DNA of 64,000 nucleotides from Marinobacter antarcticus (GTDB taxonomy: Bacteria; Pseudomonadota; Gammaproteobacteria; Pseudomonadales; Oleiphilaceae), in assembly GCF_011049865.1 (NCBI RefSeq), contig NZ_DRGY01000152.1, positions 23,034 to 87,033 on the forward strand, given 5' to 3'. The notes under the pieces were generated by a model. That model saw nothing but the letters and a program-made list of their open reading frames with translations, was not told the DNA's origin and searched no databases. The translations under genes and the position numbers were made by a program. Below are positions 29,889 to 49,470 of the stretch, piece after piece (position 1 is the stretch's first letter; every line of letters starts with the position of its first letter).

Positions 29889-31829
29889 TCAAATAGGAAG
29901 CCGGTGTACCTTCCCCGTGGCGTCATGAGCGACGGGGACATCATGTCCACCGTTACACCACACAAGGTCGGCCACATTGCCATTCGGTGTAAATCCCGTG
30001 GGCGCACTTTTCAACGTTTCAACAATCTGACTGCAATCAAATTCCTGACTGGCCCGTGACAGTTTGCTCAACACAATTTCCAAATCTTCCCAAGCCATCG
30101 ATACTTCACGCGCCATCATAATACGAGGATGAGACGTACCTTGGGGATTGTCACCAATCAGCAGCTCTTCAAAGAGTTTTTCCCCTGGCCGCAATCCTGT
30201 GAAAACAACTTCGATGTCTCCTTCTGGTTGCTCCAGCGTTTTTTCCACAAGCCCCATCAGATGAATCATCTTGCGCGCCAAATCCGCAATCTTCACCGGC
30301 TCGCCCATATCCAACACAAACACCTCACCACCGCGGCCCATACTGCCGGCTTGCAACACCAGCTGGCTGGCCTCAGGGATGGTCATGAAATACCGGATGA
30401 TATCCTTGTGCGTTACCGTAATCGGCCCGCCGTCGCGAATCTGATCGCGGAACAAAGGCACCACGGAACCGGAAGAACCCAATACATTGCCAAAACGCAC
30501 CATCGAGAAAATCGTTTTATTCTGACGCTGCGCCAAACCCTGCAGAACCAACTCCGCCATCCGCTTGCTCGCGCCCATTACATTGGTCGGGCGAACTGCC
30601 TTATCGGTTGAGATCAGAACAAACCGCTCAACGCCGGCCGAGATAGCCGCCTCTGCCGCATGCAAGGTGCCAAACGTATTGTTCTGAACCCCTTCAATCA
30701 CGTTGTGTTCAACCAGCGGCACGTGCTTATAAGCAGCCGCATGGTAAACCGTCTGGATCTGGAAACTGCGCATCACCATTTCACACCGACGACGATGAAC
30801 CACGCTACCAAGCAGGGGATGAATCTCGACATCCAGCCCCTCAATCCGGTTAATAGCCTGCAACTCCCGCTCAATGGCGTACAGGGAAAACTCGGATTGC
30901 TCAAACAAAACCAGAACCCGCGGCCGGTGATGAATGATCTGCCGGCAAAGCTCCGAACCAATAGAGCCGCCAGCGCCGGTTACCATCACGGCTTTTTTAT
31001 ACAAACTGGACGCAACCTGAGCGTTATCGGGCCGCACAGGGTTTCTACCCAACAAATCCTCGATTTCCAAATCCCGAATGTCGTTAATCCGGGCCTGACC
31101 CGCAACCACTTCCGACATGGACGGAACCGTCTGAACCGGCAGTTTGAGCTCTTCCAAACGTTTAAGAAGCTGCCGACGATCAACCTGCTTATCGGCATCT
31201 AACGCCAACAGCAACCGCTTTACACCGTGAACACGCACAGCTTTCTCGAGATGATTCAAGGCAAACACCGGCACGCCGGCAATAAGGGCCTTGTGGTTAG
31301 CAGGCAACAAACCAATGAACACCACCGGTTGGTACTCAGTACCGTGTTGCAAGGCTTTAGCTAGTTGAGCGCCCGTTTCACCAGCGCCCACAATTGCCAC
31401 CAACTCCTTACCCCGGTTAGATGTGTGATGCACCAGCATGCGCACGCTCATGCGGCTGCCGCCCACAAAGATGAACGCCAGCGCCGCATAGATTACGGGA
31501 ACGGAACGTGGAACCTGAACCTGAAGGCTGTAGCCAAGAATAATCAGCAGCAAAGCGGAAGCGCCGACGCCCATGATGATCGTAAGGAACGCTCGGTCGC
31601 TCATGTAACGCACAACGGCGCGATAAAGGCCCAAGCGAACGAAAACACCCAAAGTGAAAACGACCGTGAGCGCGGTCACCAGTAATTGGCCTTGGTCAGG
31701 CAACCATAGGCTCTGATCTAAACGTAGTGCGAAAGAGGCCCAAAGCGCGAAGGAAAGGGCAATCGTATCTACCGACAAAGAAACCAGACGTTTCTGGAAA
31801 CGCGACAGCTTTAGAAACGATTTAAACAT
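29889..31829 (-). CDS. wbpM: UDP-GlcNAc 4,6-dehydratase, WbpM/PglF family
   Basis: 646 residues, the long membrane form. Four membrane helices (about 10-130), a CoA-binding-like Rossmann domain (IVGAGETGAQLAKAL), then the extended SDR dehydratase domain with VTGAGGSIGSELCRQ and the S-M-K type active site (STDKAVRPTNVMGASKR, about 405-420). It makes UDP-2-acetamido-2,6-dideoxy-4-ketoglucose on the cytoplasmic face. It is the last gene of the O-antigen operon, as wbpM is in P. aeruginosa; its ATG overlaps the aminotransferase stop by 8 bases. With the next three genes it gives a bacillosamine route. Confidence 0.95.
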   Translation of the reverse strand: MFKSFLKLSRFQKRLVSLSVDTIALSFALWASFALRLDQSLWLPDQGQLLVTALTVVFTLGVFVRLGLYRAVVRYMSDRAFLTIIMGVGASALLLIILGYSLQVQVPRSVPVIYAALAFIFVGGSRMSVRMLVHHTSNRGKELVAIVGAGETGAQLAKALQHGTEYQPVVFIGLLPANHKALIAGVPVFALNHLEKAVRVHGVKRLLLALDADKQVDRRQLLKRLEELKLPVQTVPSMSEVVAGQARINDIRDLEIEDLLGRNPVRPDNAQVASSLYKKAVMVTGAGGSIGSELCRQIIHHRPRVLVLFEQSEFSLYAIERELQAINRIEGLDVEIHPLLGSVVHRRRCEMVMRSFQIQTVYHAAAYKHVPLVEHNVIEGVQNNTFGTLHAAEAAISAGVERFVLISTDKAVRPTNVMGASKRMAELVLQGLAQRQNKTIFSMVRFGNVLGSSGSVVPLFRDQIRDGGPITVTHKDIIRYFMTIPEASQLVLQAGSMGRGGEVFVLDMGEPVKIADLARKMIHLMGLVEKTLEQPEGDIEVVFTGLRPGEKLFEELLIGDNPQGTSHPRIMMAREVSMAWEDLEIVLSKLSRASQEFDCSQIVETLKSAPTGFTPNGNVADLVWCNGGHDVPVAHDATGKVHRLPI

Positions 31830-33006
31830 CGGCGAGCGTTGCTTGCGTCATGATGCTTGCCAACACATTACACGTCTTATCAATTTCTTCGTGTCTTAAC
31901 GTCGGGTGAACTAAAAACATCAAACTGATCTCCCCAAGTTCGTGAGCAACAGGCAACGGTGTTTCCGGTCGCCAAGCTGTACCTTCAAATGCTTTCTCAA
32001 GATACACCTCAGAACAAGAACCTGAAAAGCATGGTACTCCTGCGTCTACAATCGCACTCTGTATCCGATCACGGCTCCAGCCCTCTGCCAACCTTTCAGG
32101 CTCTATAAAAACGTAGCACTTATACGCGGCATGTTCGACATCAGCGGATATGGTCGGTACCCGCAAGCCGGGCAACGCTCGCGCACAATCCCAAATCGCT
32201 TTGGCATTCCGCTGGCGCGCTTCCCGCCACTGCGGCATACGGGAAAGCTGAATACGCCCTATTACACCCTGCATTTCCGTCATACGCCCGTTAGTTCCGA
32301 AGCTCTCGTGCAACCACCGAAAACCTGGCGGATGCTCACGCTCATAAACAGCGTTCCAGCTCTTACCATGATCTTTAAACGACCACATGCGTGACCACAA
32401 GTTACGATCATTACAGGTAACTGCACCACCCTCGCCCCCGGTGGTCATAATCTTGTCCTGGCAAAATGACCAAGCACCGGCGTGACCGATAGAACCTACA
32501 GAACGGCCTTTATATCGCGCCCCATGAGCCTGGGCGCAATCTTCGATGACAAACAGATCGTGCTTCCCGGCCAGATCCATAATTGGATCCATATCGCAAG
32601 GCCAACCTGCAAGATGCACGCAAATCACTGCGCGGGTTCTATCGGTCACAACAGCAGCAATGCTTTCAGCGGTTACATTCTGGGAGTCTGCATCGACGTC
32701 CGCAAAAACCGGAACAGCCCCAGCCAGAACAATGCTGGATACTGATGCAAGAAACGTTCGGGAAGTGACCACTACCTCGTCGCCAGCACCGATGCTCAAA
32801 CCTTGTAAAATCAGATCCAAAGCGACCGTACCGTTAGAAGTTGTTATGGCGTATTCGCTATTTGAAAATATAGCGAATTCCTTTTCAAACTCCCGACATT
32901 CCTGGCCTGTCCAGTAATTTACTTTATTAGAAAGCAACACGCGGGAAACCTCAGTCGCTTCTTCCTGAGTGAAAGATGGCCAAGGTGAAAAGGGAGCGTT
33001 TAACAT
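31822..33006 (-). CDS. DegT/DnrJ/EryC1-type sugar aminotransferase (PglE-like)
   Basis: 394 residues from the ATG at 33006, which has AAGGA about 8 bases upstream; a longer start at 33051 has no such site. The PLP lysine is Lys185 (SFCQDKIMTTGGEGGAV), with NGTVALDL and EDCAQAHGA also visible. Expected reaction: transamination of the 4-keto sugar made by the WbpM/PglF enzyme to UDP-4-amino-4,6-dideoxy-GlcNAc, with glutamate. Neighbours (dehydratase, PglD-like acetyltransferase, PglC-like transferase) support the PglE role over other DegT functions. Confidence 0.9.
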   Translation of the reverse strand: MLNAPFSPWPSFTQEEATEVSRVLLSNKVNYWTGQECREFEKEFAIFSNSEYAITTSNGTVALDLILQGLSIGAGDEVVVTSRTFLASVSSIVLAGAVPVFADVDADSQNVTAESIAAVVTDRTRAVICVHLAGWPCDMDPIMDLAGKHDLFVIEDCAQAHGARYKGRSVGSIGHAGAWSFCQDKIMTTGGEGGAVTCNDRNLWSRMWSFKDHGKSWNAVYEREHPPGFRWLHESFGTNGRMTEMQGVIGRIQLSRMPQWREARQRNAKAIWDCARALPGLRVPTISADVEHAAYKCYVFIEPERLAEGWSRDRIQSAIVDAGVPCFSGSCSEVYLEKAFEGTAWRPETPLPVAHELGEISLMFLVHPTLRHEEIDKTCNVLASIMTQATLADV

Positions 33007-33059
33007 CTTTGAATCCTTAAAAAACGAAATATTGAAGCCCCGACAAGACAAGCCAAAAT

Positions 33060-33686
33060 TCAGATCGAAAGAGAATGAGCGGGATTGCCTATCATAGTTG
33101 AACCTGCAGCTATATCTTGAAGCACGACTGCGCCCATGCCAATGATGCTATTATCACCAACACACACTAATTGCCGAAGGCTTGCGTTGGCGCCGACCCA
33201 AACGCTATTACCCAGTCTAACACCACCGGCTAAAATCGCTCCGGGACTGATATGACAAGCACAGCCCAGAATACAATCGTGCTCAACCACGGCATTAGTA
33301 TTCAAAATAACACCGGCACCAACATTGGCTCCAGCGTTCACAACAACTCCAGCAAAAACGACCGTTCCTTGTTCAATTGATGCCCGTATACTTACAGTAG
33401 CGTTAGGATGCACAACGGAGACAACTCTACCTCCTTTTTCAATGAGTAAATCCAGCTTTTCCCAACGTATAGTGTTATTGCCAATACCTACCAGAACACC
33501 TTCAAAGTCAGAGAGACTCCTCAAGAGATCACTAGTCGTGCCAATAACAGTCCAAGGGCCATTATCTAAAACAGTTGGCCAGGCATCATCAAAAAATACA
33601 ACATCTTGCCAGCCTGCCGCTTCCGCAGCATCGGCTACAACCTTTCCGTGGCCACTGGCACCGAGTATGGCTAGACGCCCAAGCAT
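33060..33686 (-). CDS. pglD: PglD/NeuD-family sugar acetyltransferase
   Basis: 208 residues. An N-terminal Rossmann-like nucleotide-sugar domain (LAILGASGHGKVVADAA) and a left-handed beta helix with hexapeptide repeats (VVEHDCILGCACHISPGA, with the likely catalytic His in VVEHDC). It acetylates the 4-amino group of the UDP-sugar with acetyl-CoA, giving UDP-N,N'-diacetylbacillosamine in the Pgl pathway. Sits between the aminotransferase and the phosphoglycosyl transferase. Confidence 0.9.
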   Translation of the reverse strand: MLGRLAILGASGHGKVVADAAEAAGWQDVVFFDDAWPTVLDNGPWTVIGTTSDLLRSLSDFEGVLVGIGNNTIRWEKLDLLIEKGGRVVSVVHPNATVSIRASIEQGTVVFAGVVVNAGANVGAGVILNTNAVVEHDCILGCACHISPGAILAGGVRLGNSVWVGANASLRQLVCVGDNSIIGMGAVVLQDIAAGSTMIGNPAHSLSI

Positions 33687-33729
33687 TTATATTTCCTCAA
33701 CGCGAAATTAAGATTCCAAAACCTGAACT

Positions 33730-34329
33730 TCAAGAGTCTGAACTGCCGGTAAACTTACTCATCGTTGCTTCGCCTTCACCAGTAATTCCATCTCTAACCA
33801 AAACCTTTTTGACGGTCAGAAACAATATTTTTATATCAAGCCAGAAGTTGCCATTATCCACATACCATACGTCCAACTTGAACTTTTCGTCCCAGGAAAT
33901 AGCATTACGACCGTTTACCTGCGCCCATCCCGTCACACCCGGGCGAACGTCATGACGTCGGTACTGTTCTTTTGAATAAAGCGGAAGGTATTCCATCAAC
34001 AATGGGCGAGGACCAACAAGGCTCATGTCACCCTTAAGCACATTCCAAAGCCCTGGCAGTTCATCCAGACTCGTTGATCGCAGAAATCGACCGAGAGAAG
34101 TCATTCGTTCCGAATCCGGTAATTGGTTACCAAATCTATCAACTGCCTTATTCATGGTGCGAAATTTGATCATCTGAAACGGAATACCATTTTTCCCTGG
34201 ACGAGCTTGGCAGAAGAAAATGGGTGCGCCAAGATTGAGGCGAATGGCCAAGACCAAAAGAAAAAGCAGTGGTGAACAAAGTACCAAGACTGGCAGTGAC
34301 AATACTAAATCAAACAACCTCTTGAACAT
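33730..34329 (-). CDS. pglC: PglC-type phosphoglycosyl transferase (initiating enzyme)
   Basis: 199 residues from the ATG at 34329, one base past the TGA of the upstream glycosyltransferase. Small monotopic PGT form: one re-entrant membrane helix (about 5-30), KFRTM, SLDELPGLWNVLKGDMSLVG (the Asp-Glu catalytic pair and PRP that follow) and VRPGVTGWAQVNGRN. It moves a phospho-sugar, by context diNAcBac-1-P, onto undecaprenyl phosphate at the inner membrane and so starts the repeat unit. It holds the place of WbpL in P. aeruginosa, which is a polytopic enzyme of another fold. Confidence 0.92.
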   Translation of the reverse strand: MFKRLFDLVLSLPVLVLCSPLLFLLVLAIRLNLGAPIFFCQARPGKNGIPFQMIKFRTMNKAVDRFGNQLPDSERMTSLGRFLRSTSLDELPGLWNVLKGDMSLVGPRPLLMEYLPLYSKEQYRRHDVRPGVTGWAQVNGRNAISWDEKFKLDVWYVDNGNFWLDIKILFLTVKKVLVRDGITGEGEATMSKFTGSSDS

Positions 34330-34330
34330 C

Positions 34331-35554
34331 TCAGGTTCCTTCAAACAGGATGTCTTCAAAGTCTTTGCAGAGCTTTTCGTAAGACCTATTACCTAACAGC
34401 CACTCTCTCCCGAGCAGCCCTATCCGATCACGCTCATCGTTTGACATAGATGCATATCTCTTGAGCTCACTCACAAGAGCCTTAACATCCCCAGATGGGA
34501 CGAAAGACCCGCTTCCTGCCTCCGAAACCATTGACGGGTAACCAGAGTAAGAAGCTACAACAGGCTTTCCAGAGAACATGTAATCTATTAACTTGTTTAA
34601 AGATTGGCCGTACGCCCACACCTTTGAGGGGAAGGTGGAAAAATACACAATGTCACACAGAGAGAGAACTGATTGAACTTGGTTTTTAAAGACCTTGGGG
34701 GCGAAGACAACATTAGGTAAATCTCCGTATTTCTCTATATATTCTTGCTTTAAAGGGCCATCTCCCACAACAACGAATTCAATATTGCTTTCATCTTTCA
34801 TTATCTCCGCTGCTTTAAAAAATACATCAAGAGCATTAGTAATACCAATAGTTCCTGTATGTACAATTTTTAACTTTTCGCTCGAAAGATAGCTTTCGAT
34901 ATATAAGTCATCTAGAGAGCTAGCATTAACCAACTGTTCTTCAAAAACTCCCATAGGAACGCAGTACACCGGGGCCGCTATCTTGGTTACTTCCTGAACA
35001 TGTTGTTGTAAATTTGGCATGGTTCCGATAATGGCATCAGATTTTTTATAGCCAAGCCTCTCGACAAATGACAAGAAGTATACTAAAGGATTGTTTGGGC
35101 TGACACCGCCTTCTTCAACGATGGTTAAAGGCCAAATATCGCGAATTTCAAAGATAAGTCGACATCCATATTTTCTTTTCAGAACCAGACCATTCAAAAT
35201 CGTTAACAGTGAGAGGCTTGAAACAACTATGACGTCAGGCTTAGGAATTTTGGATTTATCCAGCCAAAACAATCCCCACTCAAAGTGAAACCAACTTAAT
35301 ATTCTAAAGATCGACTTTGCTACGCTATATTTTAAAGTTCTTATCCAGATTACAGTTACACCATCAATCGATTGTTGTAATGTTTTTAGGGCCAACTCCG
35401 GCATCTTCGCCAGGCGATTAGAGTCGGAGGTGATAACCACTGGCTTATATCCAAATTGAGCCAAACCAGCTATAAGAAACCATCCTCGACCACCCGGTGT
35501 TGACTCTGACTTTGATTCAAAATACTTCGATATATACCAGACTACCTTAGTCAT
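34331..35554 (-). CDS. GT4-family glycosyltransferase
   Basis: 407 residues. GT-B fold: an N-terminal acceptor domain (YFESKSESTPGGRGWFLIAGL) and a C-terminal donor domain with VHTGTIGITNALDVFF, VVVGDGPLK and the EAGSGSFVPSGD segment that carries the ribose/phosphate Glu. It resembles WbuB-type transferases that add N-acetylfucosamine-like sugars in O-antigen and capsule loci; donor and linkage cannot be read from sequence. It runs one base into pglC. Confidence 0.88.
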   Translation of the reverse strand: MTKVVWYISKYFESKSESTPGGRGWFLIAGLAQFGYKPVVITSDSNRLAKMPELALKTLQQSIDGVTVIWIRTLKYSVAKSIFRILSWFHFEWGLFWLDKSKIPKPDVIVVSSLSLLTILNGLVLKRKYGCRLIFEIRDIWPLTIVEEGGVSPNNPLVYFLSFVERLGYKKSDAIIGTMPNLQQHVQEVTKIAAPVYCVPMGVFEEQLVNASSLDDLYIESYLSSEKLKIVHTGTIGITNALDVFFKAAEIMKDESNIEFVVVGDGPLKQEYIEKYGDLPNVVFAPKVFKNQVQSVLSLCDIVYFSTFPSKVWAYGQSLNKLIDYMFSGKPVVASYSGYPSMVSEAGSGSFVPSGDVKALVSELKRYASMSNDERDRIGLLGREWLLGNRSYEKLCKDFEDILFEGT

Positions 35555-35569
35555 AAAATCAAAACCACT

Positions 35570-37384
35570 TTAATAGAGCCGAGGGATGGAGTTAACAATC
35601 TTAATTACATCCGTAAAATTCAAATCGAGCACGTCTAGATACCATCGTATATTCTCATATCGAGGCTGATTTTCATCGGCGACCAATTCGATGGCCCGGT
35701 CACGGGTTATTTGTCCCTCACGGATTTGATTACTCCTAAACGTATCGTGCTCTGTGAACCCCGCCACCAGATAGTAGATATAGTTATAAAATGCGGCGGT
35801 ACCATCGCCAATACGCCATGTAGTATTAGTGTCCACCGCTATTTCCCAATCATACTCATCAATTAATGTACGATCAATTAACTCTTCATCCCAACGCCAG
35901 TAATCGAATATGTGATAGTAGTCTTTCTTTTCGGTAAAGCTTCGATGGTACTCACCAGAAAGAGTATCCCAAAGTGAAGAGTTGAAATACCCGGGACTTT
36001 TAATCATTGCTTTGAATCGAAGTTTTTGATACTCGAGCTGCTTCTGCCAACCATGACTGTAGACTCGCTCCTCCTCAAAGTCAGGCGGGACACCCAGAAA
36101 CCCCGCTTTGAAATGGGTAACTTCAAGTGGATTTACACCCCAGAGGTTAAGATCAATACCTGTCTGTTTTTTAACAGATTCAACGTGCCTAAAGAAATGC
36201 TTATCACCAGCCGTCAGAATACTTATCATCCCCAAGTGTGGCGCCTTGAGCCACGCTTTAAGGTTCCTTTTAATATTCTCTCGCTTTTTGATAATATCAT
36301 CTGCGATGATGATATTTTCAACTCCCAACTCGGCACACATCCGACTAATATTTCGCCTTCCAAGGTCTGTAACCATACCCCAATCATAAGTATAAGTGAT
36401 TGGGGTCATACCAAGCTCTTTAACTATCAGATGAAGACCATAGCAACTGTCCCGACCACCAGAGAACGGAACAATACAATCGGGAGCACCATCACGGCGG
36501 TACTGCTTTAGCAGGTCAAAAATTTCTTTCTTCGGCTTAGGCACATTGCGCAGTTGGTAATTATTGCAGTAGTTACATACACCCTCTTGATCAAAAGTAA
36601 TGTAAGGCATTGTTTCCGGTAAAATACATTTTGAGCAACGTTTAAGCTCAGGTTTAGGATAAAGCAGTAACGCCTGTTCCGAGTCGATTTGAGAAAATTT
36701 TGGTATTAGATTGACTCGGTCGTCTTTATTTTCTTTTAGCTCGATTTTTTCATTTATTGGAATATCAACATGTACTTCGTCATTGATGACTTTTTTAACT
36801 TTCTCACACTCCAAAACGGAAAGTGGATACTCTTCGGATGAAAAATAAAAGTCGCTATTCTTATAGCCAATGTACAGACTGCCATTATTCGAAAATACCA
36901 CCATTTTCCCAAGCTTGGGCACCACAATTGCTGCCGAAATCACACCTTTACATAGCGCAAAAACTTTTTCGGAAACACCAATTAAACTACCTGTTTTAGC
37001 GATGTGCAACTCCGCAATAGCGGCGATAACCTCTGTATCAATCTCCTGATGCCTAGTTGCTCCTATTTCATCCCAGACAGCCTCATCGTTAACGACAATA
37101 CCATTGTGAATAACACAGATGCCATTTCTGATCACCGGCTGATTATCGCCAAGACCATTGGTTATCAATCGGCTGTGCCCCAAGGCAACTCTGGCGCCCT
37201 TAAGTTTCACCTTCTGCAGTAAATCTTTGATGTCACTGCCTGCGCGATAAATCTGGTACTCCGAGTGTTTAGCGAGCATAAGCCCACTTGAATCACGGCC
37301 CCTTTGTCTTGCGTGCTCTGCAAGAAATTTTAAATCCTTTGCGTCAACTTTAGTTAAAGAAGAAATTCCAAATATTCCACACAT
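35570..37384 (-). CDS. Fused class-II glutamine amidotransferase / WbpG-like sugar amidotransferase
   Basis: 604 residues. The N-terminus MCGIFG with Cys2 and GHSRLITNG, then NGIVVNDEA, is a class-II (Ntn) glutaminase domain (about 1-215). After a linker come two CxxC pairs (CSKCILPETMPY and CNYCNNY) and a PP-loop ATPase with PFSGGRDSCYG (about 305-315), like WbpG/PseA N-acetyl sugar amidotransferases. This layout mimics asparagine synthetase B but with a WbpG-type synthetase half. It would make its own ammonia and so not need HisH/HisF. By context it amidates a sugar in this locus. A separate WbpG with HisH2 and HisF2 is also present, so two amidations are possible. Exact substrate unknown. 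Confidence 0.85.
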   Translation of the reverse strand: MCGIFGISSLTKVDAKDLKFLAEHARQRGRDSSGLMLAKHSEYQIYRAGSDIKDLLQKVKLKGARVALGHSRLITNGLGDNQPVIRNGICVIHNGIVVNDEAVWDEIGATRHQEIDTEVIAAIAELHIAKTGSLIGVSEKVFALCKGVISAAIVVPKLGKMVVFSNNGSLYIGYKNSDFYFSSEEYPLSVLECEKVKKVINDEVHVDIPINEKIELKENKDDRVNLIPKFSQIDSEQALLLYPKPELKRCSKCILPETMPYITFDQEGVCNYCNNYQLRNVPKPKKEIFDLLKQYRRDGAPDCIVPFSGGRDSCYGLHLIVKELGMTPITYTYDWGMVTDLGRRNISRMCAELGVENIIIADDIIKKRENIKRNLKAWLKAPHLGMISILTAGDKHFFRHVESVKKQTGIDLNLWGVNPLEVTHFKAGFLGVPPDFEEERVYSHGWQKQLEYQKLRFKAMIKSPGYFNSSLWDTLSGEYHRSFTEKKDYYHIFDYWRWDEELIDRTLIDEYDWEIAVDTNTTWRIGDGTAAFYNYIYYLVAGFTEHDTFRSNQIREGQITRDRAIELVADENQPRYENIRWYLDVLDLNFTDVIKIVNSIPRLY

Positions 37385-37433: not shown

Positions 37434-38546
37434 TTATGTATGGTTCGGGCTAAAGCGCGGCGTCAAAAAATCGGGTATATGATCGGCTTTTATGGCTTCT
37501 ACAATTCGTTGCGAAGCCTTTCCTCCGCCATACAACTGCTTCGTATCTTCAACCTTCCGCCCATAGTTTTGCAGTGCTGCAGTTACAATTTTCTGCGTAT
37601 CCGAACCAACCAACTCATTAACACCAGCCTCAACCAGTTCGACCCATTCAGTCTGATCGCGCATAGTCACGCAGGCTTTACCAAAGAAAAACGCCTCTTT
37701 TTGTACTCCTCCGCTATCAGTTAATACCAACTGGCAGTGGCTCAAAAGCCAAATCATTTCAAAATATCCTATAGGATCAACTAGGTGTATTTTTAACTCC
37801 AATCCATGCTGGCTAATAAGTCTGCGGGTGCGGGGGTGCAGCGGCATTATAACGGGTGCTTGTTCATTGTGGATCTGGTTTAGCGATTTCACGATATTTG
37901 CTAGGCGTTCGGGATTGTCCGTATTTTCGGCACGGTGGAGAGTCGCAAGGATGAAATTTTCCGGAAAATCACCGACTGCAGGGGCTGCAGCGTTTTCCGC
38001 AAACAACAAGGCGGCGTCCTGCATCACGTCCCCCACCTGAAGCACTTTCGCGGGTTTGTCAGTAAAGCCTTCCTTTTCTAGATTTCTGACGGCAGTATCT
38101 GATGGGCAAAACAACAGATCACTAATCTGGTCAGTAAGAATACGGTTGATCTCTTCGGGCATCTCCATATTGAAGCTCCGAAGGCCCGCTTCTACATGGG
38201 CAACGGGAATGTGGAGCTTGGCCGCAGCAAGCGCCCCGGCCAAGGTAGAGTTGGTATCACCATAAACCACCACGCGGTCGGGTTTAATTTTCAGCAGGGC
38301 GAGCTCAATTTCCATCAGCATTCGGCCAGTCATTTCGCCGTGACCGCCCCCGTGTATATCCAACTGAATATTAGGCCTGGGGATACCTAACTGGTTAAAG
38401 AATACGTCCGACATATTTGCGTCGAAATGCTGGCCGGTATGAAGCAAAATTTCTTCAATGCCATCGGTTTGTTGAATGGCGCGAGAAACAACGCTGGCCT
38501 TTATGAATTGAGGACGGGCTCCAATGATCGTAAGGATTCGTTGCAT
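37434..38546 (-). CDS. wbpI: UDP-GlcNAc 2-epimerase family enzyme, WbpI-like
   Basis: 370 residues. Starts with GARPQFIKA and has HTGQHFD, HVEAGLRSFN, TLHRAEN and DSGGVQKEAFF, the WecB/WbpI signature residues. WecB acts on UDP-GlcNAc; in a cluster with wbpA, B, D and E the expected substrate is UDP-GlcNAc3NAcA, giving UDP-ManNAc3NAcA as WbpI does. The WecB activity itself cannot be ruled out from sequence. Confidence 0.9.
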   Translation of the reverse strand: MQRILTIIGARPQFIKASVVSRAIQQTDGIEEILLHTGQHFDANMSDVFFNQLGIPRPNIQLDIHGGGHGEMTGRMLMEIELALLKIKPDRVVVYGDTNSTLAGALAAAKLHIPVAHVEAGLRSFNMEMPEEINRILTDQISDLLFCPSDTAVRNLEKEGFTDKPAKVLQVGDVMQDAALLFAENAAAPAVGDFPENFILATLHRAENTDNPERLANIVKSLNQIHNEQAPVIMPLHPRTRRLISQHGLELKIHLVDPIGYFEMIWLLSHCQLVLTDSGGVQKEAFFFGKACVTMRDQTEWVELVEAGVNELVGSDTQKIVTAALQNYGRKVEDTKQLYGGGKASQRIVEAIKADHIPDFLTPRFSPNHT

Positions 38547-38555
38547 ATAGTGTCT

Positions 38556-39662
38556 TTACTCAGCCAGTGAATTATAGAAATCGAGAAGCTTCTGTTCTTC
38601 AATACCCCAGTTAAACTTCTCCAACACCGCCTTCTGACCGTTGAGACCCATCTGCTCTGCTTCCTCGGGGTAAGTTACTAGATAGTCAATCGCTCCGGCA
38701 ATGGCCAGTGGATCGAGTGGATCGACGCAAAGGCCACAATTATTGCCTTCGATGATTTGCTTCCAGAGGGGAAAGTGCGAGCCAATAACCGGCACACCAG
38801 CACTCATGTACTCGAACATCTTATTCGGCTGGGCATCGATATGGTTCGGCGAAGGCAGAAAAGTCACCAAACCGCCTACACAATAGGAAAGAAGGTCACG
38901 CACTTCTCCTCGTCCTACAAAGCCATGCACGTCCACTTGTTTCCAGCCCTGATCAATCTGAGCTTCTTTCTCGTCAGCCAGATTGCTGAACTTGCCAGCC
39001 AACTGCAAACGGGCGCCAGATTGAACGCGCCCCATAGCCTGAACGACCTGCAAGATTCCTCGAAGCCGCCCGATACCCCCAACATAAGCAACCTGCTCCT
39101 CCTTCTTCGACCAGTCCACCGCTCCACTAGAAAGCTCGCCTAACAATGGGTAGTTATTAATGTCTACCGAGCGCACACCCATGGCGGTATACTTATCACG
39201 AATGTAGGGAGTTGCGGCAATCACCGCATCCAGCTTGCGGCAAACCCAACGTTCGTATACCGCAAAGGTTTTCGACAGCAACCACAGCGCGGGCTTGTTT
39301 AAATAAGGCTTGCCCAATAATTGCTTGGAAACATCCTCATGAGCGTCGAAGATAACTGTTTTGCCCTGTTTTTTTAGCTTCAGACCAATAGGAAGCAACT
39401 CTGGATCGTGAAGATGGTAAACCTCCGCATCTAACTCAAGCGCTTTCGCAAACACCCGTCCGGGTGCATTGCGGATTCGATCTAAACGGCCTTTTGAAGC
39501 ACCGACATCGCAGATCGCAATGCCGTTTTTGGTTTCAATGCCCTTACCGTCCGCTACGACTAAGTAAACGGTATGACCATAATTAACGAGAGAGGTACAT
39601 TCCTTAAGGAAAATTCGAGTGTCGAAACGGGGATGAACAGAGGTGAGATGGACTATTTTCAT
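38556..39662 (-). CDS. GT4-family glycosyltransferase, WbpH-like
   Basis: 368 residues from the ATG at 39662; an in-frame GTG at 39686 would add eight residues. GT-B fold with [14 protein letters not shown] at the start, [24 protein letters not shown] and [20 protein letters not shown]. Position between wbpG and wbpI equals that of wbpH in P. aeruginosa O5, where it adds a mannuronic-acid derivative. Specificity by position only. Confidence 0.87.
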
Positions 39663-39701
39663 TTGACGTCGAATTGCTCCTTTCACCTGACGAGTATCAG
39701 T

Positions 39702-40853
39702 TTACGAGTAAACCTTGATTCTTTTTCCGGTCATCCGAGTAACGAACGACTGAAGTCGCTTCAAGAATTTATACTTCTTTTCCCAAGTTGCAAATTCATT
39801 ATATTCATGAATCGGAGCTTCCATCAACTCGTTAAACTCTGCGCGATTGATACGTAATTTTTTACAGAAGTAGGATATATCTATTTCAAGCTCGTCATCA
39901 TTATAGAGTGGTTCTTTCATTTTTGTAAGTGCATCTTCACGCGTCATTTGCCCCGAAACTATCAAGCTCGAATAATGCGGCCTTCTTTTATCATAACCAA
40001 ACTTAGTCGGAAGATAATAGTTCTGGAAAAATTTGGTAAACAAAGACTCTCCGTGTTTACGAGGATAAGGTTTGTATCCAACAGTTTTTTCAAGCTCAGC
40101 CAGCGCCTCAATTTTGTCGTAAGGCATGTAATTTAACGGCCGTACTGTGCGCATTTTTTTTATAAACGGGTACCAAATATAACATTTAAAAAAACTTATA
40201 GTTTTATATTGTCTGAGCTTCCTCTCGCCAAAACGACTATGTATTGCGTTCAAGTTAATCGCATCCATAGCGCTGCCATGCCATGCCTTTGGAAAAATAC
40301 CTTCCGTTGCCAAATTACCTCCGGATAAAATGTAACGAATCCGATGCTTAGTAGCAAAATGATAAAGGCTAGCAAAAAAAATATGGTCTTGGGGCACATC
40401 CTGGTTAGCAACTCCTGCCCGCAAATAGGCGAGATGCAAATCCCGCATATCCTGCCAATCGACGACATGGGTGTGTAAATCAAAATCACAGTGTTTGACT
40501 ACCGCTTCTATATTTGCGACCGCAAGCTCGCTGTTCCAACCGGCATCGACATGCATTACAAGTGGGCGCAAACCTAATTCCTTTACCCTCAGCGCAAGAT
40601 ATGAACTATCAACACCACCACTCAAACCAAGTATGCAATCATACTCCTGATCTTTGCCTGCGGCTTTAATATCCAAAACGGCTTTTTTTAGTAATTCTTG
40701 TCCCTTCTCGTTTGGAAACCAATTTTTTCGCGAAACACTTTCGAACTCAACACAATGATTACACACCCCATCTTGACTGAATTCAATTTCGGGGTCTGAT
40801 GTATCCATAACGCAACTGGAACATATCTGAACATAGTCACCGCTTGAAGTCAT
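39702..40853 (-). CDS. wbpG: N-acetyl sugar amidotransferase WbpG
   Basis: 383 residues. Zinc-type cysteines at 11, 14, 31 and 34 (CSSCVMDTSDP, CNHC), the PP-loop GLSGGVDSS (76-84), HVDAGWNSELAVANIE and the middle segment SGGNLATEGIFPKAWHG, all typical of WbpG/PseA. With HisH2 (glutaminase) and HisF2 (ammonia channel) it converts an acetamido to an acetamidino group; in P. aeruginosa this gives UDP-ManNAc3NAmA. The gene is notably A/T-rich compared with its flanks. Confidence 0.93.
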   Translation of the reverse strand: MTSSGDYVQICSSCVMDTSDPEIEFSQDGVCNHCVEFESVSRKNWFPNEKGQELLKKAVLDIKAAGKDQEYDCILGLSGGVDSSYLALRVKELGLRPLVMHVDAGWNSELAVANIEAVVKHCDFDLHTHVVDWQDMRDLHLAYLRAGVANQDVPQDHIFFASLYHFATKHRIRYILSGGNLATEGIFPKAWHGSAMDAINLNAIHSRFGERKLRQYKTISFFKCYIWYPFIKKMRTVRPLNYMPYDKIEALAELEKTVGYKPYPRKHGESLFTKFFQNYYLPTKFGYDKRRPHYSSLIVSGQMTREDALTKMKEPLYNDDELEIDISYFCKKLRINRAEFNELMEAPIHEYNEFATWEKKYKFLKRLQSFVTRMTGKRIKVYS

Positions 40854-40910: not shown

Positions 40911-42215
40911 TTACTTTCTAGCGTTCAGGAAATTTCCATAGCCATTGATCGACGCCAAAATAAAGATAATACCCATTCCAGATGAAACAAGTACAGTAGT
41001 AGCATTTTGCTCAACGACAAGAATACCAAATGCAAAGCCGATAAAAATGAACAACGGGTTTTTTCGGCATGAATAAATCGAATCAACAACTCCCAAAAAA
41101 CTTACAACAACGAAAGTAATGAATAAGTACGCCAAGATACCGCCAGAAGCCAACTGATACAAAAATGTATTTGTATTAGCATTAAGTCCTTCGTGACCCA
41201 AAAAGCTTTCTCCGACAACAAAACTGACTGGTCTATCAGAAGCAAAACCATTCCAAATGCTCCAACCAGACTCGGCACCATTCGATATAAATTCAAAGTA
41301 AGCTGACACCAAAAAAGGTGGGACTGTAAAAGCTCTTCTAATAATATAATCGGCAACAAAAGAGTAATTAAAAAAGTAAGTCTCTAACAAAAAAACTAAA
41401 AAAGCACAGTAAATGGCAAATAATAAAAGATTTAGTGCTTTATTCAAGTTATTTTTTCCATAATAAAAACCAACTAAAGCTGATAATATCAAAATAAACA
41501 AGGGGGCCTTCACGCCAATCAGGTAGAAGAAAGCCAACCAACAACTGAAAGCAATAAACAACCACAAAATACGGAACTTTAAACCTGCGAAAAACGCTAG
41601 CATAGGAATAAAGCCGTTCATAACCCAAGAATTTAGGTAGGCGAAAACTGATCCTGTGGGGTATAACTCGCGGCCTTCCAAACGGCGAATGTAAGACGTC
41701 GCCATATCAAATCCTGCCGACTCTGTAGGATTGAAAAGTCCAAAAAAGACGACGGCCAAACAAATGATCAAAGCTATGCCAAGGACCATCCAATTGCCCA
41801 GCAATTTTGGAATCCGCAAAGGATAATGTAAAGCAATAACACCTACGCATCGAACGAGCAGCAAGGGAGTTAACAGCACGAAAAAGGAAATCCAATATAT
41901 ATATGTATCATCAAACCCCCTCATAGGATATAAAACTGAGTAGGGAAGGAGAACGAACAGCGAGTGGAAAATAACAAAAAAATCAGAAGGTTTTACAATG
42001 ACTTTCGATGAAACAATAAAAATTATCAATAGAGAGCTCATAGCATTTACGATATACTCGAGCTTAAATGAAAATGTAAGATACCCAAAATATGCATTAG
42101 CTTCGGCTAACTGAAGATAATATGCCATCAGTATCCCTAATGGAATTAAAAAGAAGCCGGTCAAAATAAATAGTTTTGTGGATAAATTTTTCATCGAAAC
42201 AATTGGCTTATACAT
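40911..42215 (-). CDS. wzy: O-antigen polymerase Wzy (by topology and position)
   Basis: 434 residues with about ten to eleven hydrophobic helices and one large polar loop (about 320-370), the Wzy plan. Sequence is poorly conserved in this family, so the call rests on topology, the gene's place between hisF2 and wbpG, and the presence of wzx and wzz. It should join lipid-linked repeat units in the periplasm. Very A/T-rich. Its start overlaps the end of hisF2 by 8 bases. Confidence 0.8.
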   Translation of the reverse strand: MYKPIVSMKNLSTKLFILTGFFLIPLGILMAYYLQLAEANAYFGYLTFSFKLEYIVNAMSSLLIIFIVSSKVIVKPSDFFVIFHSLFVLLPYSVLYPMRGFDDTYIYWISFFVLLTPLLLVRCVGVIALHYPLRIPKLLGNWMVLGIALIICLAVVFFGLFNPTESAGFDMATSYIRRLEGRELYPTGSVFAYLNSWVMNGFIPMLAFFAGLKFRILWLFIAFSCWLAFFYLIGVKAPLFILILSALVGFYYGKNNLNKALNLLLFAIYCAFLVFLLETYFFNYSFVADYIIRRAFTVPPFLVSAYFEFISNGAESGWSIWNGFASDRPVSFVVGESFLGHEGLNANTNTFLYQLASGGILAYLFITFVVVSFLGVVDSIYSCRKNPLFIFIGFAFGILVVEQNATTVLVSSGMGIIFILASINGYGNFLNARK

Positions 42216-42951
42216 GAAATTTTGGATAATTAATTAACACTGCACGGTGTTTTCCATGAAATACAAACATGCTACCAGCAGCTACTGCTGATGCTCCACC
42301 TTCGCTTATCCCTTGGTTCAAGTGTTCAACAGTTCCGGCCCCGCCACAGGCAACTATGGGTACGTTTACGGCTTCCGCAATTTTACGTATCAGCTTTAAA
42401 TCATATCCATTCATCATACCATCACGATCGATGCTGTTTATAAAAATCTCTCCTACCCCGGCGTTTACAAGCCCTATAGCGTGGTCAACAGGGTCAAGTC
42501 TTGTATCCTTACTACCGGAATGGCTCATGACTGTGTATCCCCTCAAAACTGTTTTTTTTACATCTATTGCTCCAACTATAGCTTGACTACCAAATACTCT
42601 TGACGCGTCTGAAATAACTTGGATTGATTCAAATGCAGCGGTATTCACTACAACCTTTTCAATCCCACAACGAATGAGACGGGTTATTTGTTGAAGCGTT
42701 CGGATACCACCTCCATAAGCCATTGGCATAAAGGCTTCGCCAGCTACCTCTTCAATCAAATCGTAATTTGGTTCGCGCCCCTCTCGTGATGCGTCGATAT
42801 CGAGTATAACAACTTCATCCGCTTCCTTATCGCTAAATATGCGCACAGCATTAATCGGATCTCCAATATAAACAGCATCCTTAAATCTTCGAGTTTTGAC
42901 TAAACCATTATCACTTACCAACAGGCATGGAATCACACGCGCACGATACAT
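42208..42951 (-). CDS. hisF2: HisF-like cyclase/ammonia-channel subunit HisF2 (glycan type)
   Basis: 247 residues. TIM-barrel HisF fold: RVIPCLLVSDNGLVKT, DEVVILDIDASREGR (Asp), GGGIRTLQQI and ACGGAGTVEHL. It lies in an O-antigen locus next to hisH2 and wbpG, with no other his genes, so it should pass ammonia to the WbpG reaction, not make imidazole glycerol phosphate. Its ATG directly follows the hisH2 TAA. Confidence 0.93.
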   Translation of the reverse strand: MYRARVIPCLLVSDNGLVKTRRFKDAVYIGDPINAVRIFSDKEADEVVILDIDASREGREPNYDLIEEVAGEAFMPMAYGGGIRTLQQITRLIRCGIEKVVVNTAAFESIQVISDASRVFGSQAIVGAIDVKKTVLRGYTVMSHSGSKDTRLDPVDHAIGLVNAGVGEIFINSIDRDGMMNGYDLKLIRKIAEAVNVPIVACGGAGTVEHLNQGISEGGASAVAAGSMFVFHGKHRAVLINYPKFHV

Positions 42952-43563
42952 TTATTCACCTTTCACAAAAGCAGAAAGTAGTTGCTTGCCGAACCTGTGG
43001 CTCTTCTCTGGGTGGAATTGAACCCCAGCAATGTTGCCCCGTGCAACCCCGGCAGCAAAATCTATTCCATAGTGAGCAGTGAGTAGGATATCGCTGGGGT
43101 TCCGCGGGGCCATATAGTAACTATGCACAAAATAAAACCGACTTTTCGGTTCCATAGAAGCGCACATAGGATTCTGAAGATCTCTATTGGACACCTCATT
43201 CCAGCCCATGTGGGGTACACGCAACCCAGGAATCTCCGGAAACCTAAGCACGTCGATATTCAACCAACCCAAACCGTTCTCAACGCCCTCCTCACTGCCA
43301 TTGCCAAGCATCTGTGCGCCTACACAAACACCAAGAACCGGCACTTTCTGTTTCAACGCCTTCTCTTCCAAAACCGGAATCAAGCCACTATTGCGAAGAT
43401 TTTTCATACAGGCATCGAAAGAACCATTGCCGGGTAATATAATTTTTTCTGCTTTCTCGATATCATCTTCTCGAGCGGTAATGTTACTGCGAACGCCAAT
43501 ACGCAGCAACATATTAGCAATTGCGTTAATATTCCCAATATCGTAATCAATTATGGCAATCAA
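42952..43563 (-). CDS. hisH2: HisH-like glutaminase subunit HisH2 (glycan type), TTG start
   Basis: 203 residues from the TTG at 43563, which overlaps the wzx stop as TTGA and gives the normal HisH start (IAIIDYDIGN); a longer upstream frame adds 23 unrelated residues. Class-I glutamine amidotransferase triad: Cys80 in VLGVCVGAQ, His184 and Glu186 in VQFHPEKSH. It releases ammonia from glutamine for HisF2/WbpG. Confidence 0.92.
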   Translation of the reverse strand: MIAIIDYDIGNINAIANMLLRIGVRSNITAREDDIEKAEKIILPGNGSFDACMKNLRNSGLIPVLEEKALKQKVPVLGVCVGAQMLGNGSEEGVENGLGWLNIDVLRFPEIPGLRVPHMGWNEVSNRDLQNPMCASMEPKSRFYFVHSYYMAPRNPSDILLTAHYGIDFAAGVARGNIAGVQFHPEKSHRFGKQLLSAFVKGE

Positions 43564-44789
43564 CGATTTACCCCTAAACTGAAACGGTAAGACATCAACA
43601 GATAGATTGCATACAAAGCACCATATCCCCAACTAAATGTTTTCAAAGCAACTTCATATCCCGACAACGTTGTCAGAGAAAAAGCTGTCATTCCAAGTAA
43701 GCCAATCTGCCAAATAAGATCAAGGTGTTGCTTCTCAGCTATATAAACCATATAGCTAAGAGGACTGGCAACAAAACGCAGAGCGAACAGCGGCAACATC
43801 CAAACCGCAATTACACCTGCTTGAGCCCATTCTCTTCCAAATGCAAGAATAAACAAAGGCTCGCTGGCAAAGAACATAATAAAACAAAATATGAAGGAGC
43901 CAAAAGAAAGCACATTAAAGGTTTTAACGTATTCTTCTCGACATTCGCCACGGTCAAAATAACTTGTAGCAGCGTGGCGTTTAAAAACGTCCAAGACAGA
44001 TTTTCCAAGCAATCCGATGGGTGCTCCGAGCACCTTCATTGTCATTGCTAACATTCCAGAGATATCTGCCCCAAATCGAGCAGTAACAATTAGAACTGGC
44101 AACTGAGCGGCGCCAGTATTTATAAAATCAGCTGGGAGTGAAAATATAGGGAATCGACGTTGACGCTTCCAAAAGCTTACAACGCCCAACCAAATTCCAT
44201 TTTTTGGTAGATCCGTCAACGGCAGCATACAGAATGATAAAACAAGTGCTAGTATCAAGCCGAGCAAATGAGCCAATGCCAACACGGAAGCTGTTGAAGA
44301 AAAAAGGCCGCCTATAATCTGAAAAAGTGTAATGAGACCAGCCTGCGCAATCCGCATGTAAGAAAGCTTACGATACTCACCCTCCGCAGCCGCCCACGAC
44401 TGCCATATATTGTTGGTCGCCAAAAATAGTGCGGCGGGAAGCCACACCAACACGAGTACAATTGGGTATCGGGCGAGCAGGTCTGGCAGGAAAAAAACCC
44501 CACCGAAGACGACGATTGTAAAAAAAGCACTCACGAACCCAGTCACTACCAAAGTCGATAACACTGCTAACCGACGCTCCACCCCGTCTTTTTCAATAAC
44601 CAGCGCCATGTCGTATCGACAAGTCAATAAAACAGCAAGCAGCATAACAAGTCCAAGCCAAGCAGAGAACATACCGAACTCGGCGGGTGCATAGAGCCGT
44701 GCAATAACAAGCGACCCCAGCACGGGAATTAGTTGAGCAATGACTGACCCCGTAAGCACGGACTTTACACTTCTCCAATAATTTGTCAT
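43560..44789 (-). CDS. wzx: Wzx-type flippase
   Basis: 409 residues and about 12 hydrophobic helices, a polysaccharide transporter (MATE/MOP) fold starting with the GSVIAQLIPVLGSLVIARLY segment. It should flip the undecaprenyl-linked repeat unit to the periplasm. Its TGA overlaps the hisH2 TTG start. The upstream gap to the acyltransferase gene is about 115 bases of A/T-rich DNA. Confidence 0.92.
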   Translation of the reverse strand: MTNYWRSVKSVLTGSVIAQLIPVLGSLVIARLYAPAEFGMFSAWLGLVMLLAVLLTCRYDMALVIEKDGVERRLAVLSTLVVTGFVSAFFTIVVFGGVFFLPDLLARYPIVLVLVWLPAALFLATNNIWQSWAAAEGEYRKLSYMRIAQAGLITLFQIIGGLFSSTASVLALAHLLGLILALVLSFCMLPLTDLPKNGIWLGVVSFWKRQRRFPIFSLPADFINTGAAQLPVLIVTARFGADISGMLAMTMKVLGAPIGLLGKSVLDVFKRHAATSYFDRGECREEYVKTFNVLSFGSFIFCFIMFFASEPLFILAFGREWAQAGVIAVWMLPLFALRFVASPLSYMVYIAEKQHLDLIWQIGLLGMTAFSLTTLSGYEVALKTFSWGYGALYAIYLLMSYRFSLGVNR

Positions 44790-44905: not shown

Positions 44906-46795
44906 TCAATGAAGACGACCTTTCGGATGAGAATATTTGTTATTAAAAATTGAATTTTTTATTACACTCTTTGCCTGTTTAGCATATTCGATAATACCGA
45001 TTTCGTTTATGTGATTATTATCATAGTAAACTGGCTCTCCTTGATAAATTGGTGCTTTCTCAAATATTGGTAAATTATCAAAACCAAGGTAATCCAATTT
45101 AGGTATTTCCTCTGCGAATTTTCTCAAAAGTCGATTCGTCCGCACATAGTCAGGATTACGCTGCGACTCAACGACTAATCCCAAATTATTGAATCTAAGA
45201 ACGCGCAGTGGATTACTATTTAATAACGGCTCTTGTCCAATGATGTAAACATGTGTTCCGTTTGACGTAATCGTTTGGAAAAACTCAACCAAGGCGCTCT
45301 CAAAGTCTTTGCTTTTCAACTGCCAGTTCCACAAGGCTGCAAGAAACACAATTTTAGCCTTCGCCAGATGCTCATTGGCGATCTTAATTTGGTCTTGGCA
45401 TTGCTGGTGTGCCCACTCAGCAATGCGCTTATAATCGAAATCTGGAATAGTCACGCAACTGCTAGCCGTGATTATTCGAGCTTTAAAGCCGAGCTCTTTG
45501 CCAAGGTAAGCGAAAAAGTTGTTTAGCATTGCTGCGTGGGAGTCACCCAGTACCAGCACCTCTCTATCGCTGCTCAGGTCACCTTGGAGACAGTCACTTA
45601 CAATTTTACCGTGACAGATACCGGCCGGGTCTGCATAGCGCTGATACTCAATTGGTAACTGTTCGGGCGTAAAGGCTTCATTCACATTAGCCATTACTTG
45701 TGAGGTGCCGAGGACTGCTGTAGTTAGTAAAAACCAATTTAGTGCCTGCCTCTTGTGAACGTGCTCTGTCCGGAATGGCCGCTCTAACCAGTAGTAAGAA
45801 ACCATTGATAATAGAAATGTCAGGGCAATGAATAGCAGACTAAACGATAAGTCCAACACTTCAGATCCGGTGTAGTAGCGTAAAAAAGCGAGCACCGGCC
45901 AGTGCCAGAGGTAAAGCGAATAAGACAATGCCCCAATCCATACAAGAGCTCTATTTGATAGCAAACGCGCAGTAAGTCCCTTCGAAGTACCGATAAGCAG
46001 AAAAACTGTGCCCATTATCGGCAACAGCGCCGGTAAGCCTGGGAAGTGGCCGAGTTTGGGTTGGGCGATGGCCGCCAATAGAATAACTAATAAACCTGAG
46101 CTGCTGAGCCACTGGGTTATTCTGCCCCTCTCCCTCCAGGTTGTTGAGGTTACAAACAGCGCTGCAAGGCAACCTGCAAAGAACTCGGGCAGGCGAGCGT
46201 ACAGGCTATAATAGGTGGCTTGCTCAATTCCCAAAAATCGCAGCCTGTATTCGGCCAGCAGCGTGCAGCCAACCAACAATGCAACCAGCGTATATTTAAG
46301 GGTTTTAATGGGTAGCAGCAGTATCAGTAGCGGAGCCAGCAGGTAAAACTGGATTTCAACCGCCAGCGACCAAGTGTGCAGTAGGGGTTGTTCGTGATTA
46401 GCTGGGGCAAAATAATCGCCAAAACCCGCGAAATAATCGTTGCTTGTGAACCAGGCGGCTTTCTCCAGCCCGTCCTTGAAGATGTTGAAATCCTTCGGGA
46501 TGAAGAATACAGCACCTGCAAACGCTACTAACACCAGCATGAAAAAGTAGGCCGGAGCGATGCGCTTAAGGCGACTACTATAAAAATACTTGAATGTGGC
46601 ACTCAGGGTATAGCCAGGCTGAGCTTTTTTCTTCAACAAAATACTGGTGATCAAAAAACCTGAAATCACCAAAAATACATCCACACCGATGAACCCCCCT
46701 GGCAGCCACGTGGGATTGTAGTGAAAAACCATCACAGCAAGCACCGCGATGGCTCTTAGTCCCTGAATATCGGAGCGGTAGTGGGTTCCACTCAC
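44906..46795 (-). CDS. OafA-type acyltransferase with SGNH domain (WbpC-like)
   Basis: 629 residues. Acyltransferase-3 membrane domain (about 1-340, ten helices; starts YRSDIQGLRAIAVLAVMVFH with the catalytic His) and a C-terminal SGNH-like domain (VLGDSHAAMLNNF, then NNHINEIG). It acetylates glycans on the periplasmic side. GTG start overlapping the wbpE stop as GTGA. Length and place match WbpC of the P. aeruginosa O5 cluster, although here it follows wbpE. Confidence 0.92.
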   Translation of the reverse strand: MSGTHYRSDIQGLRAIAVLAVMVFHYNPTWLPGGFIGVDVFLVISGFLITSILLKKKAQPGYTLSATFKYFYSSRLKRIAPAYFFMLVLVAFAGAVFFIPKDFNIFKDGLEKAAWFTSNDYFAGFGDYFAPANHEQPLLHTWSLAVEIQFYLLAPLLILLLPIKTLKYTLVALLVGCTLLAEYRLRFLGIEQATYYSLYARLPEFFAGCLAALFVTSTTWRERGRITQWLSSSGLLVILLAAIAQPKLGHFPGLPALLPIMGTVFLLIGTSKGLTARLLSNRALVWIGALSYSLYLWHWPVLAFLRYYTGSEVLDLSFSLLFIALTFLLSMVSYYWLERPFRTEHVHKRQALNWFLLTTAVLGTSQVMANVNEAFTPEQLPIEYQRYADPAGICHGKIVSDCLQGDLSSDREVLVLGDSHAAMLNNFFAYLGKELGFKARIITASSCVTIPDFDYKRIAEWAHQQCQDQIKIANEHLAKAKIVFLAALWNWQLKSKDFESALVEFFQTITSNGTHVYIIGQEPLLNSNPLRVLRFNNLGLVVESQRNPDYVRTNRLLRKFAEEIPKLDYLGFDNLPIFEKAPIYQGEPVYYDNNHINEIGIIEYAKQAKSVIKNSIFNNKYSHPKGRLH

Positions 46796-47871
46796 TGTGT
46801 GAGTGCCGCCGAGATCTTCCTCTGTTCATCCTCTGTCAGGTACGGATGCATTGGAATGCTCATCACCGCTTGTGCCATTGAATCCCCTACAGGCAACGTC
46901 GCGCGCTCGTCCAGTACTGCAGGTTGTTTGTTCAAAGGGATCGGATAATGCACTGCTGTCGGAATCCCGACATCCTTGAGTTTTGCCTGGATTCCATCCC
47001 TACCCTGCACCCGAATGGTGTACTGCGCCCACGCAGACCTGTTATGAGACTCCACGTGAGGCGTCTCATCAAATCCAGCGTTGTTCAGCAACCGGGTATA
47101 GATTTCTGCTACTTTGTTACGCAACTGAACTTCTTCATCCAGTAATTCCAGTTTTGGCAATAGAATTGCGGCCTGCAAAGTATCCAGACGGCTGTTCACA
47201 CCCACACGTACATGGTGATAACGACGCTCTTGGCCGTGGCAGGCGATCTGTCGCAAAATTTTAGCCAGCTCATCATCATTGGTAAACATGGCCCCGCCGT
47301 CTCCGTAGCAACCAAGGGGTTTACTGGGAAAAAAGCTGGTAGTGGCAATGGTGGAAAGATTGCAGGATTTTTTACCTTTGTAGCTGGCCCCGAAGCTTTG
47401 TGCGCCGTCCTCAATGACCGGGATGCCGTGCTTATAGGCGATGGCGTTAATTGCATCAAAATCCGCGCACTGACCATAAAGCGATACAGGAATGATGGCT
47501 TTGGTTCGCGGGGTGATTGCCGCTTCCAGTTTAGTTGGGTCCAGATTGTAAGTACGTGGATCGATGTCCACGTAAACAGGCTTGGCACGCAACAACGCGA
47601 CAGTTTCTGCGGTGGCTATGTAGGTAAAGCCCGGGGTAATAACTTCGTCTCCCGGGCCAATACCTAGCGCCATCTGAGCAATCTGTAGGGCATCTGTGCC
47701 GTTGGCGCAGGTGATGCAGTGTTTTGCGCCAGTGTAAGCAGCAAGCTTTTCTTCCAGTTCAGTTACTTCCGGGCCCAGGATGTATTTGCCGTGGGCGAGG
47801 ACTTTCTGGATGTTGGCGTCAATTTTATCTTTAATCCTGGCTTGTTGTGCTGCCAAATCAATGAATTGCAT
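46792..47871 (-). CDS. wbpE: UDP-2-acetamido-2-deoxy-3-oxo-glucuronate aminotransferase WbpE
   Basis: 359 residues, DegT family. PLP lysine Lys184 in SFFPSKPLGCYGDGGA; NGTDALQIA and EDGAQSFGA are also as in WbpE. It transaminates the 3-keto sugar made by WbpB to UDP-GlcNAc3NA. Follows wbpD, which acetylates the product. Confidence 0.95.
   Translation of the reverse strand: MQFIDLAAQQARIKDKIDANIQKVLAHGKYILGPEVTELEEKLAAYTGAKHCITCANGTDALQIAQMALGIGPGDEVITPGFTYIATAETVALLRAKPVYVDIDPRTYNLDPTKLEAAITPRTKAIIPVSLYGQCADFDAINAIAYKHGIPVIEDGAQSFGASYKGKKSCNLSTIATTSFFPSKPLGCYGDGGAMFTNDDELAKILRQIACHGQERRYHHVRVGVNSRLDTLQAAILLPKLELLDEEVQLRNKVAEIYTRLLNNAGFDETPHVESHNRSAWAQYTIRVQGRDGIQAKLKDVGIPTAVHYPIPLNKQPAVLDERATLPVGDSMAQAVMSIPMHPYLTEDEQRKISAALTQ

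Positions 47872-47929: not shown

Positions 47930-49470
<1,541 letters not shown>

Follow-up and report, generated by a model that had tools for sequence, protein, structure and literature searches.

When the sugars of a bacterial coat are amidinated, its charge and antigenicity change. In P. aeruginosa O5, the amidinated sugar ManNAc3NAmA is made by WbpG, a type of enzyme whose working is little understood (PMC10607449). WbpG and WbuX are N-acetyl sugar amidotransferases (NASATs, TIGR03573), and one such enzyme has a solved structure, 8WEX. Glutamine-derived ammonia is delivered to WbpG by HisH2 and HisF2, which comprise a class-I glutaminase and run on chains separate from that of the synthetase. 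A second group, the AsnB-type uronamide enzymes WbpS, WbqG and PGN_1234, combines a class-II glutaminase with another kind of PP-loop synthetase (PMC7468200).

The gene described here lies in a window of 64,000 nucleotides from Marinobacter antarcticus. It resembles WbpG and WbuX in its PP-loop (SGGxDS), its tetracysteine site, the full-length homology of its synthetase and its O-antigen context. It differs from them in carrying an additional class-II glutaminase, in having, by genome content, no need of HisH2 and HisF2, in forming a separate clade and in scoring below the family cut-off. With WbpS, WbqG and PGN_1234 it shares a class-II glutaminase placed N-terminally to an ATP-using PP-loop synthetase and an occurrence in surface-glycan clusters, but their synthetase is of the Asn_synthase kind and yields a uronamide, whereas that of the fusion is NASAT-like.

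Architecture and active sites of the fused chain

The gene (35570..37384, minus strand) is one open reading frame with an ATG start and without internal stop, encoding a single chain of 604 amino acids. A preliminary description had read it as an Ntn glutaminase with Cys2 joined to a WbpG-type synthetase with CxxC pairs and SGGRDS, and motifs, profiles and the structural model agree on this reading. The N-terminal domain (residues 1-235; 36680..37384, minus strand) matches GATase_6 over residues 63-184 (42.4 bits, cut-off 27) and GATase_7 over residues 77-185 (31.9 bits, cut-off 25); the models for GlmS, PurF and AsnB also match this end. The C-terminal domain (residues 246-604; 35573..36649, minus strand) aligns with nearly the entire TIGR03573 WbuX model over residues 248-591 (E 2e-41), and its 142.5 bits stay under the curated cut-off of 203.2, as do the scores of the fusions in all 31 genomes compared. 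The proposed combination of GATase_6 or GATase_7 with a WbpG-like domain is therefore present, all three profiles being matched on one chain. Profile searches found no match to PF00733 (Asn_synthase) or AsnB in the synthetase domain.

The residues C2, R28, G29, R72, T75, N94, G95 and D116 correspond to the class-II set of the GlmS and PurF proteins that the same genome encodes. A Cys after the initial Met, followed by the Arg, Thr, Asn-Gly and Asp of the active site, marks the domain as a class-II (Ntn) glutaminase. Among 69 homologs, 67 keep this set, Cys2 itself (codon at 37379..37381, minus strand) included. GlmS and PurF have the same catalytic residues, but their synthase domains are unrelated to that of the fusion. 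In the synthetase, the zinc-type tetracysteine site C250 C253 C270 C273 (36566..36637, minus strand) and the PP-loop SGGRDS at residues 308-313 (36446..36463, minus strand) are invariant among the 69 homologs, and a zinc site is present in the NASAT structure 8WEX (PMC10607449). An AlphaFold2 model built with the 69 homologs reached a pLDDT of 90.5 and a pTM of 0.90. In Foldseek, its first-ranked match was 8WEX (E 1e-14, TM 0.56 by target length), followed by AsnB across both domains and then GlmS; by sequence, too, 8WEX, a Legionella NASAT, is the nearest solved protein, with GlmS next. Chance is excluded as the origin of this architecture because full-length homologs, mostly of 54-73% identity, occur in many phyla.

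The main rival to an amidinating enzyme is a uronamide synthase, which would supply its own ammonia and, like WbpS, WbqG and PGN_1234, adenylate the C6 carboxylate of a HexNAc-uronic acid to form an amide. The order of the domains, a class-II glutaminase and then a PP-loop synthetase, mirrors AsnB and WbpS, and solved AsnB proteins can be aligned with the two domains; the synthetase, however, is NASAT-like throughout, down to the tetracysteine site of that family, and matches no AsnB model. Of 53 fusion loci, 14 also hold genes of the AsnB/WbpS type, where a second uronamide enzyme would be redundant. On balance, a uronamide product appears unlikely.

In two homologs most of the glutaminase active-site set is gone together, namely at L088:187-1980, with Ser2, and at L090:10001-11812, with Pro2. 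These two have the lowest N-to-C identity ratios among the 69 homologs, and their synthetase motifs are all intact. Such a loss in two lineages is what one would expect if the supply of ammonia is a separable module. A stand-alone synthetase, 71% identical (L102:7986-9095), is nested inside the fusion clade; it lies on a 119.5-kb IMG/VR contig, and no GATase_6 match occurs anywhere in this record, which may be a fragment. Together, the three cases show a synthetase of this family maintained with no glutaminase of its own, a point against the self-contained reading.

Distribution and origin of the fusion

A scan of species genomes gave at least 80 loci that match over all or nearly all of the chain. 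Those listed fall in nine phyla, and a plasmid copy from Solidesulfovibrio adds a tenth. Public annotations of these genes vary between hypothetical protein, glucosamine 6-phosphate synthetase and 7-cyano-7-deazaguanine synthase. The fusion is a real, conserved and widespread architecture that is unnamed in the libraries searched, and what is new here is a NASAT-type synthetase carrying its own class-II glutaminase. No characterised enzyme with this architecture was found in PDB, Pfam, NCBIfam or the literature searched, so the earlier statement that none is recognised holds for the exact combination. It may be narrowed by the E. albertii O1 polysaccharide, an O-antigen apparently made with the fusion, whose structure has been published. 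It is also narrowed by the known pairing of a class-II glutaminase with a different PP-loop synthetase (PMC7468200).

Among 399 genomes of the phylum, a stand-alone NASAT over the cut-off is found in 42 and the fusion in three, two of which are the genome of the window and its known relative. A search of 36 genomes of the same genus yielded no fusion, but one genome from another family of the same order has it at 69% identity, a pattern that suggests horizontal acquisition. In a quick maximum-likelihood tree, with long branches flagged, the synthetase domains of all 30 sampled fusions group in a single clade (SH-aLRT 100), which a stem 3.07 changes per site long sets apart from the clade of stand-alone WbpG. 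The fusion therefore most likely arose once and spread widely, as judged from this tree. Full-length matches are absent from phage records, and IMG/VR holds two full-length copies besides the stand-alone one; the full-length genes are at L100:7035-8858 and L101:8001-9824, on contigs classed as viral. In an Arsenophonus endosymbiont (locus L079; G467:C3:408515-424342), the frame of the fusion is open and a nearby WbpB-type gene is split over several frames with stops; the cluster looks like a decaying one.

Given the stem of 3.07 that separates the fusion from stand-alone NASATs, and the missed family cut-off, acetamidine chemistry is not simply transferable from WbpG. A tentative broader reading, given a minority share of confidence, is a widespread, uncharacterised single-chain family whose chemistry or acceptor would be unlike that of WbpG, which would for instance make a uronamide or amidinate a second hexuronic acid in addition to the one served by WbpG, and which would have passed between phyla with surface-glycan clusters.

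The glycan locus and the supply of ammonia

The fusion gene lies in a tight co-directional operon, with a gap of 49 bp upstream and 15 bp downstream; all genes named here are on the minus strand. Downstream it adjoins a GT4 glycosyltransferase (34331..35554, Pfam match), beyond which PglC-, PglD-, PglE- and WbpM/PglF-like genes for an initiating sugar and a phosphoglycosyl transferase occupy 29889..34359. Upstream are a WbpI-like UDP-sugar 2-epimerase (37434..38546; TIGR00236, 332 bits), a WbpH-like GT4 glycosyltransferase (38556..39686; profile match) and a stand-alone WbpG (39702..40853; TIGR03573, 327 bits, over the cut-off). They are followed by HisF2 of the AglZ/HisF2 family (42208..42951; NF038364, 362 bits, over the cut-off) and the class-I glutaminase HisH2 (42952..43632; TIGR01855, 217 bits). 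Further upstream are a WbpE-like aminotransferase of the DegT family (46792..47871), a WbpD-like N-acetyltransferase of the hexapeptide family (47930..48505), a WbpB-like Gfo/Idh dehydrogenase (48502..49464; profile match) and a WbpA-like UDP-sugar 6-dehydrogenase (49474..50784; TIGR03026, 429 bits). Wzx and Wzy complete the set, which is of the P. aeruginosa O5 wbp type. The same operon contains an SGNH-domain acyltransferase (44906-46795) that probably O-acetylates the glycan. The stand-alone WbpG with HisH2 and HisF2 named in the preliminary description is thus in the operon of the fusion.

The co-occurrence of these genes was followed in 31 fusion-bearing genomes, some of them incomplete MAGs, with curated cut-offs for HisF2 and WbpG. 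HisF2 passes the cut-off in nine genomes and stand-alone WbpG in ten; all nine with HisF2 also have stand-alone WbpG (Fisher p 5e-7, a statistic that ignores relatedness), and 21/31 have neither over the cut-off. Since HisF2 occurs only alongside WbpG and most of these genomes have neither, HisF2 follows WbpG, and the fusion does without it. By genome content, the fusion is independent of HisH2/HisF2. This result, together with an E. coli cluster without wbpG, hisH2 and hisF2, bears out the suggestion that the fusion solves the supply of ammonia in another way. The glutaminase domain might instead act in trans and feed WbpG, or the fusion might be a backup for the residue that WbpG modifies, as the sharing of one operon in the window would allow; with stand-alone WbpG missing from 21 of the 31 genomes, and HisF2 tracking WbpG rather than the fusion, either arrangement is very improbable.

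Other arrangements of these genes were also seen. At L041:8457-11824, the genes immediately upstream of the fusion are of the HisH2 and HisF2 types, and the stand-alone WbpG of that genome is about 20 kb away. At the actinobacterial loci L070 (genome G465) and L068 (genome G464), the fusion has HisF2, a WbpA-type dehydrogenase and a pair of stand-alone WbpG-type genes in its vicinity, but no gene of the WbpB type.

Acceptor sugar and predicted reaction

The simplest setting of the fusion was met in E. coli, where it occurs in two of 5,426 genomes. A chicken strain carries it between galF and gnd (L170), together with genes for a Gfo/Idh protein, a TviB-like dehydrogenase, an acyltransferase, a DegT protein, Wzx, Wzy, a GT4, a WecB-like epimerase and, after the fusion, another GT4. 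Within this O-antigen locus there are no WbpG, HisH2, HisF2 or Pgl-like genes. Identities to the window are 73% for WbpD, 74.5% for WbpE, 72% for WbpI, 73.5% for the fusion, and 63% and 51% for the GT4s (the WbpH-like and the downstream one, respectively); the genes of WbpA and WbpB type are only 34% and 23% identical. From this content and these identities, the only sugar pathway that can be recognised belongs to the UDP-ManNAc3NAcA type.

The 5' transposase gene of the locus has 8.4 copies of a CTCTG-type pentamer, and the E. albertii O1 cluster has a CTCTG tandem repeat in a transposase, plus central transposase genes (PMC5622975). The E. coli locus is thus apparently of the E. albertii O1 type, a link made through this signature rather than through sequence comparison. 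ManNAc3NAcA is reported from an E. albertii O antigen, and the title of the original paper likens the antigen to P. aeruginosa O5 (PMC10622841). The reported likeness of the O1 antigen to that of O5, which has an acetamidino sugar, speaks against a uronamide.

The wider genome context is more varied. Close WbpB homologs occur in 13/30 fusion genomes vs 16/397 other genomes of the phylum, a comparison that ignores relatedness and in which the fusion genomes span more phyla. In several other fusion genomes, a dehydrogenase stands beside a divergent Gfo/Idh gene within about 30 kb of the fusion; several loci have no WbpB-type gene near it, and the actinobacterial loci have only a WbpA-type dehydrogenase nearby. 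The acceptor may therefore vary, some loci in Bacteroidota and actinobacteria being at odds with a ManNAc3NAcA-type context. In favour of the uronamide reading, the carboxylate would be the shared feature at the actinobacterial loci, where the neighbourhood has a dehydrogenase of the WbpA type and lacks a gene of the WbpB type. NDP-sugar dehydrogenases in all 30 fusion genomes tested also agree with it, but they are equally present in 14/14 controls, so that their genome-wide presence was discarded as an uninformative test. NASAT homology favours the acetamidino product, and the wider uronic acid contexts keep the uronamide in consideration.

GT4 families are found at position +1 of the fusion in most loci, and a GT4-PglC-PglD-DegT-WbpM block is the commonest downstream neighbourhood. 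The acceptor could on this account be another amino sugar, for instance an initiating sugar resembling diNAc-bacillosamine, which the neighbouring PglC/D/E/F-like genes make, or the sugars could depend on the lineage. The E. coli cluster, however, has the fusion without the Pgl block and with a ManNAc3NAcA-type pathway as its only one, and this reading is somewhat less probable still than that of a uronamide synthase.

The preferred reading, held to be probable, is an amidotransferase that supplies itself with ammonia from glutamine, acts on a 2,3-diacetamido-2,3-dideoxy-hexuronic acid and most likely gives its 3-acetamidino form. The N-terminal Ntn glutaminase would hydrolyse glutamine with Cys2 as the nucleophile, and the ammonia would pass, presumably by channelling, within the chain to the NASAT-type synthetase. 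There, ATP bound at the PP-loop would activate the acetamido carbonyl, AMP would leave and nitrogen would replace the oxygen. One chain would then do what WbpG needs HisH2 and HisF2 for. The acceptor would be ManNAc3NAcA in the window and GlcNAc3NAcA in loci without wbpI, either as a nucleotide sugar or as a residue within the lipid-linked O-unit. The architecture, the conserved active sites and the grouping in a single clade are direct observations. The hexuronic acid acceptor is strongly indicated, and the 3-acetamidino product moderately so.

Two wbp-type glycosyltransferases and one UDP-ManNAc3NAcA-type pathway in the window lead to the expectation of two hexuronic acid residues. The earlier suggestion, by which a cluster with two amidotransferases would amidate two positions or two sugars, is plausible. 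The WbpG/HisH2/HisF2 trio and the fusion might each serve a different hexuronic acid residue, a division of labour that is weakly indicated.

WbpG-type enzymes rely on a multi-part ammonia supply, and an enzyme in a single chain is simpler to study biochemically. The fusion-only E. coli cluster is a direct test case for its function. With this family, genes that now carry the wrong label of glucosamine 6-phosphate synthetase or queuosine enzyme can also be named, and O-antigen structures become easier to predict from genomes.
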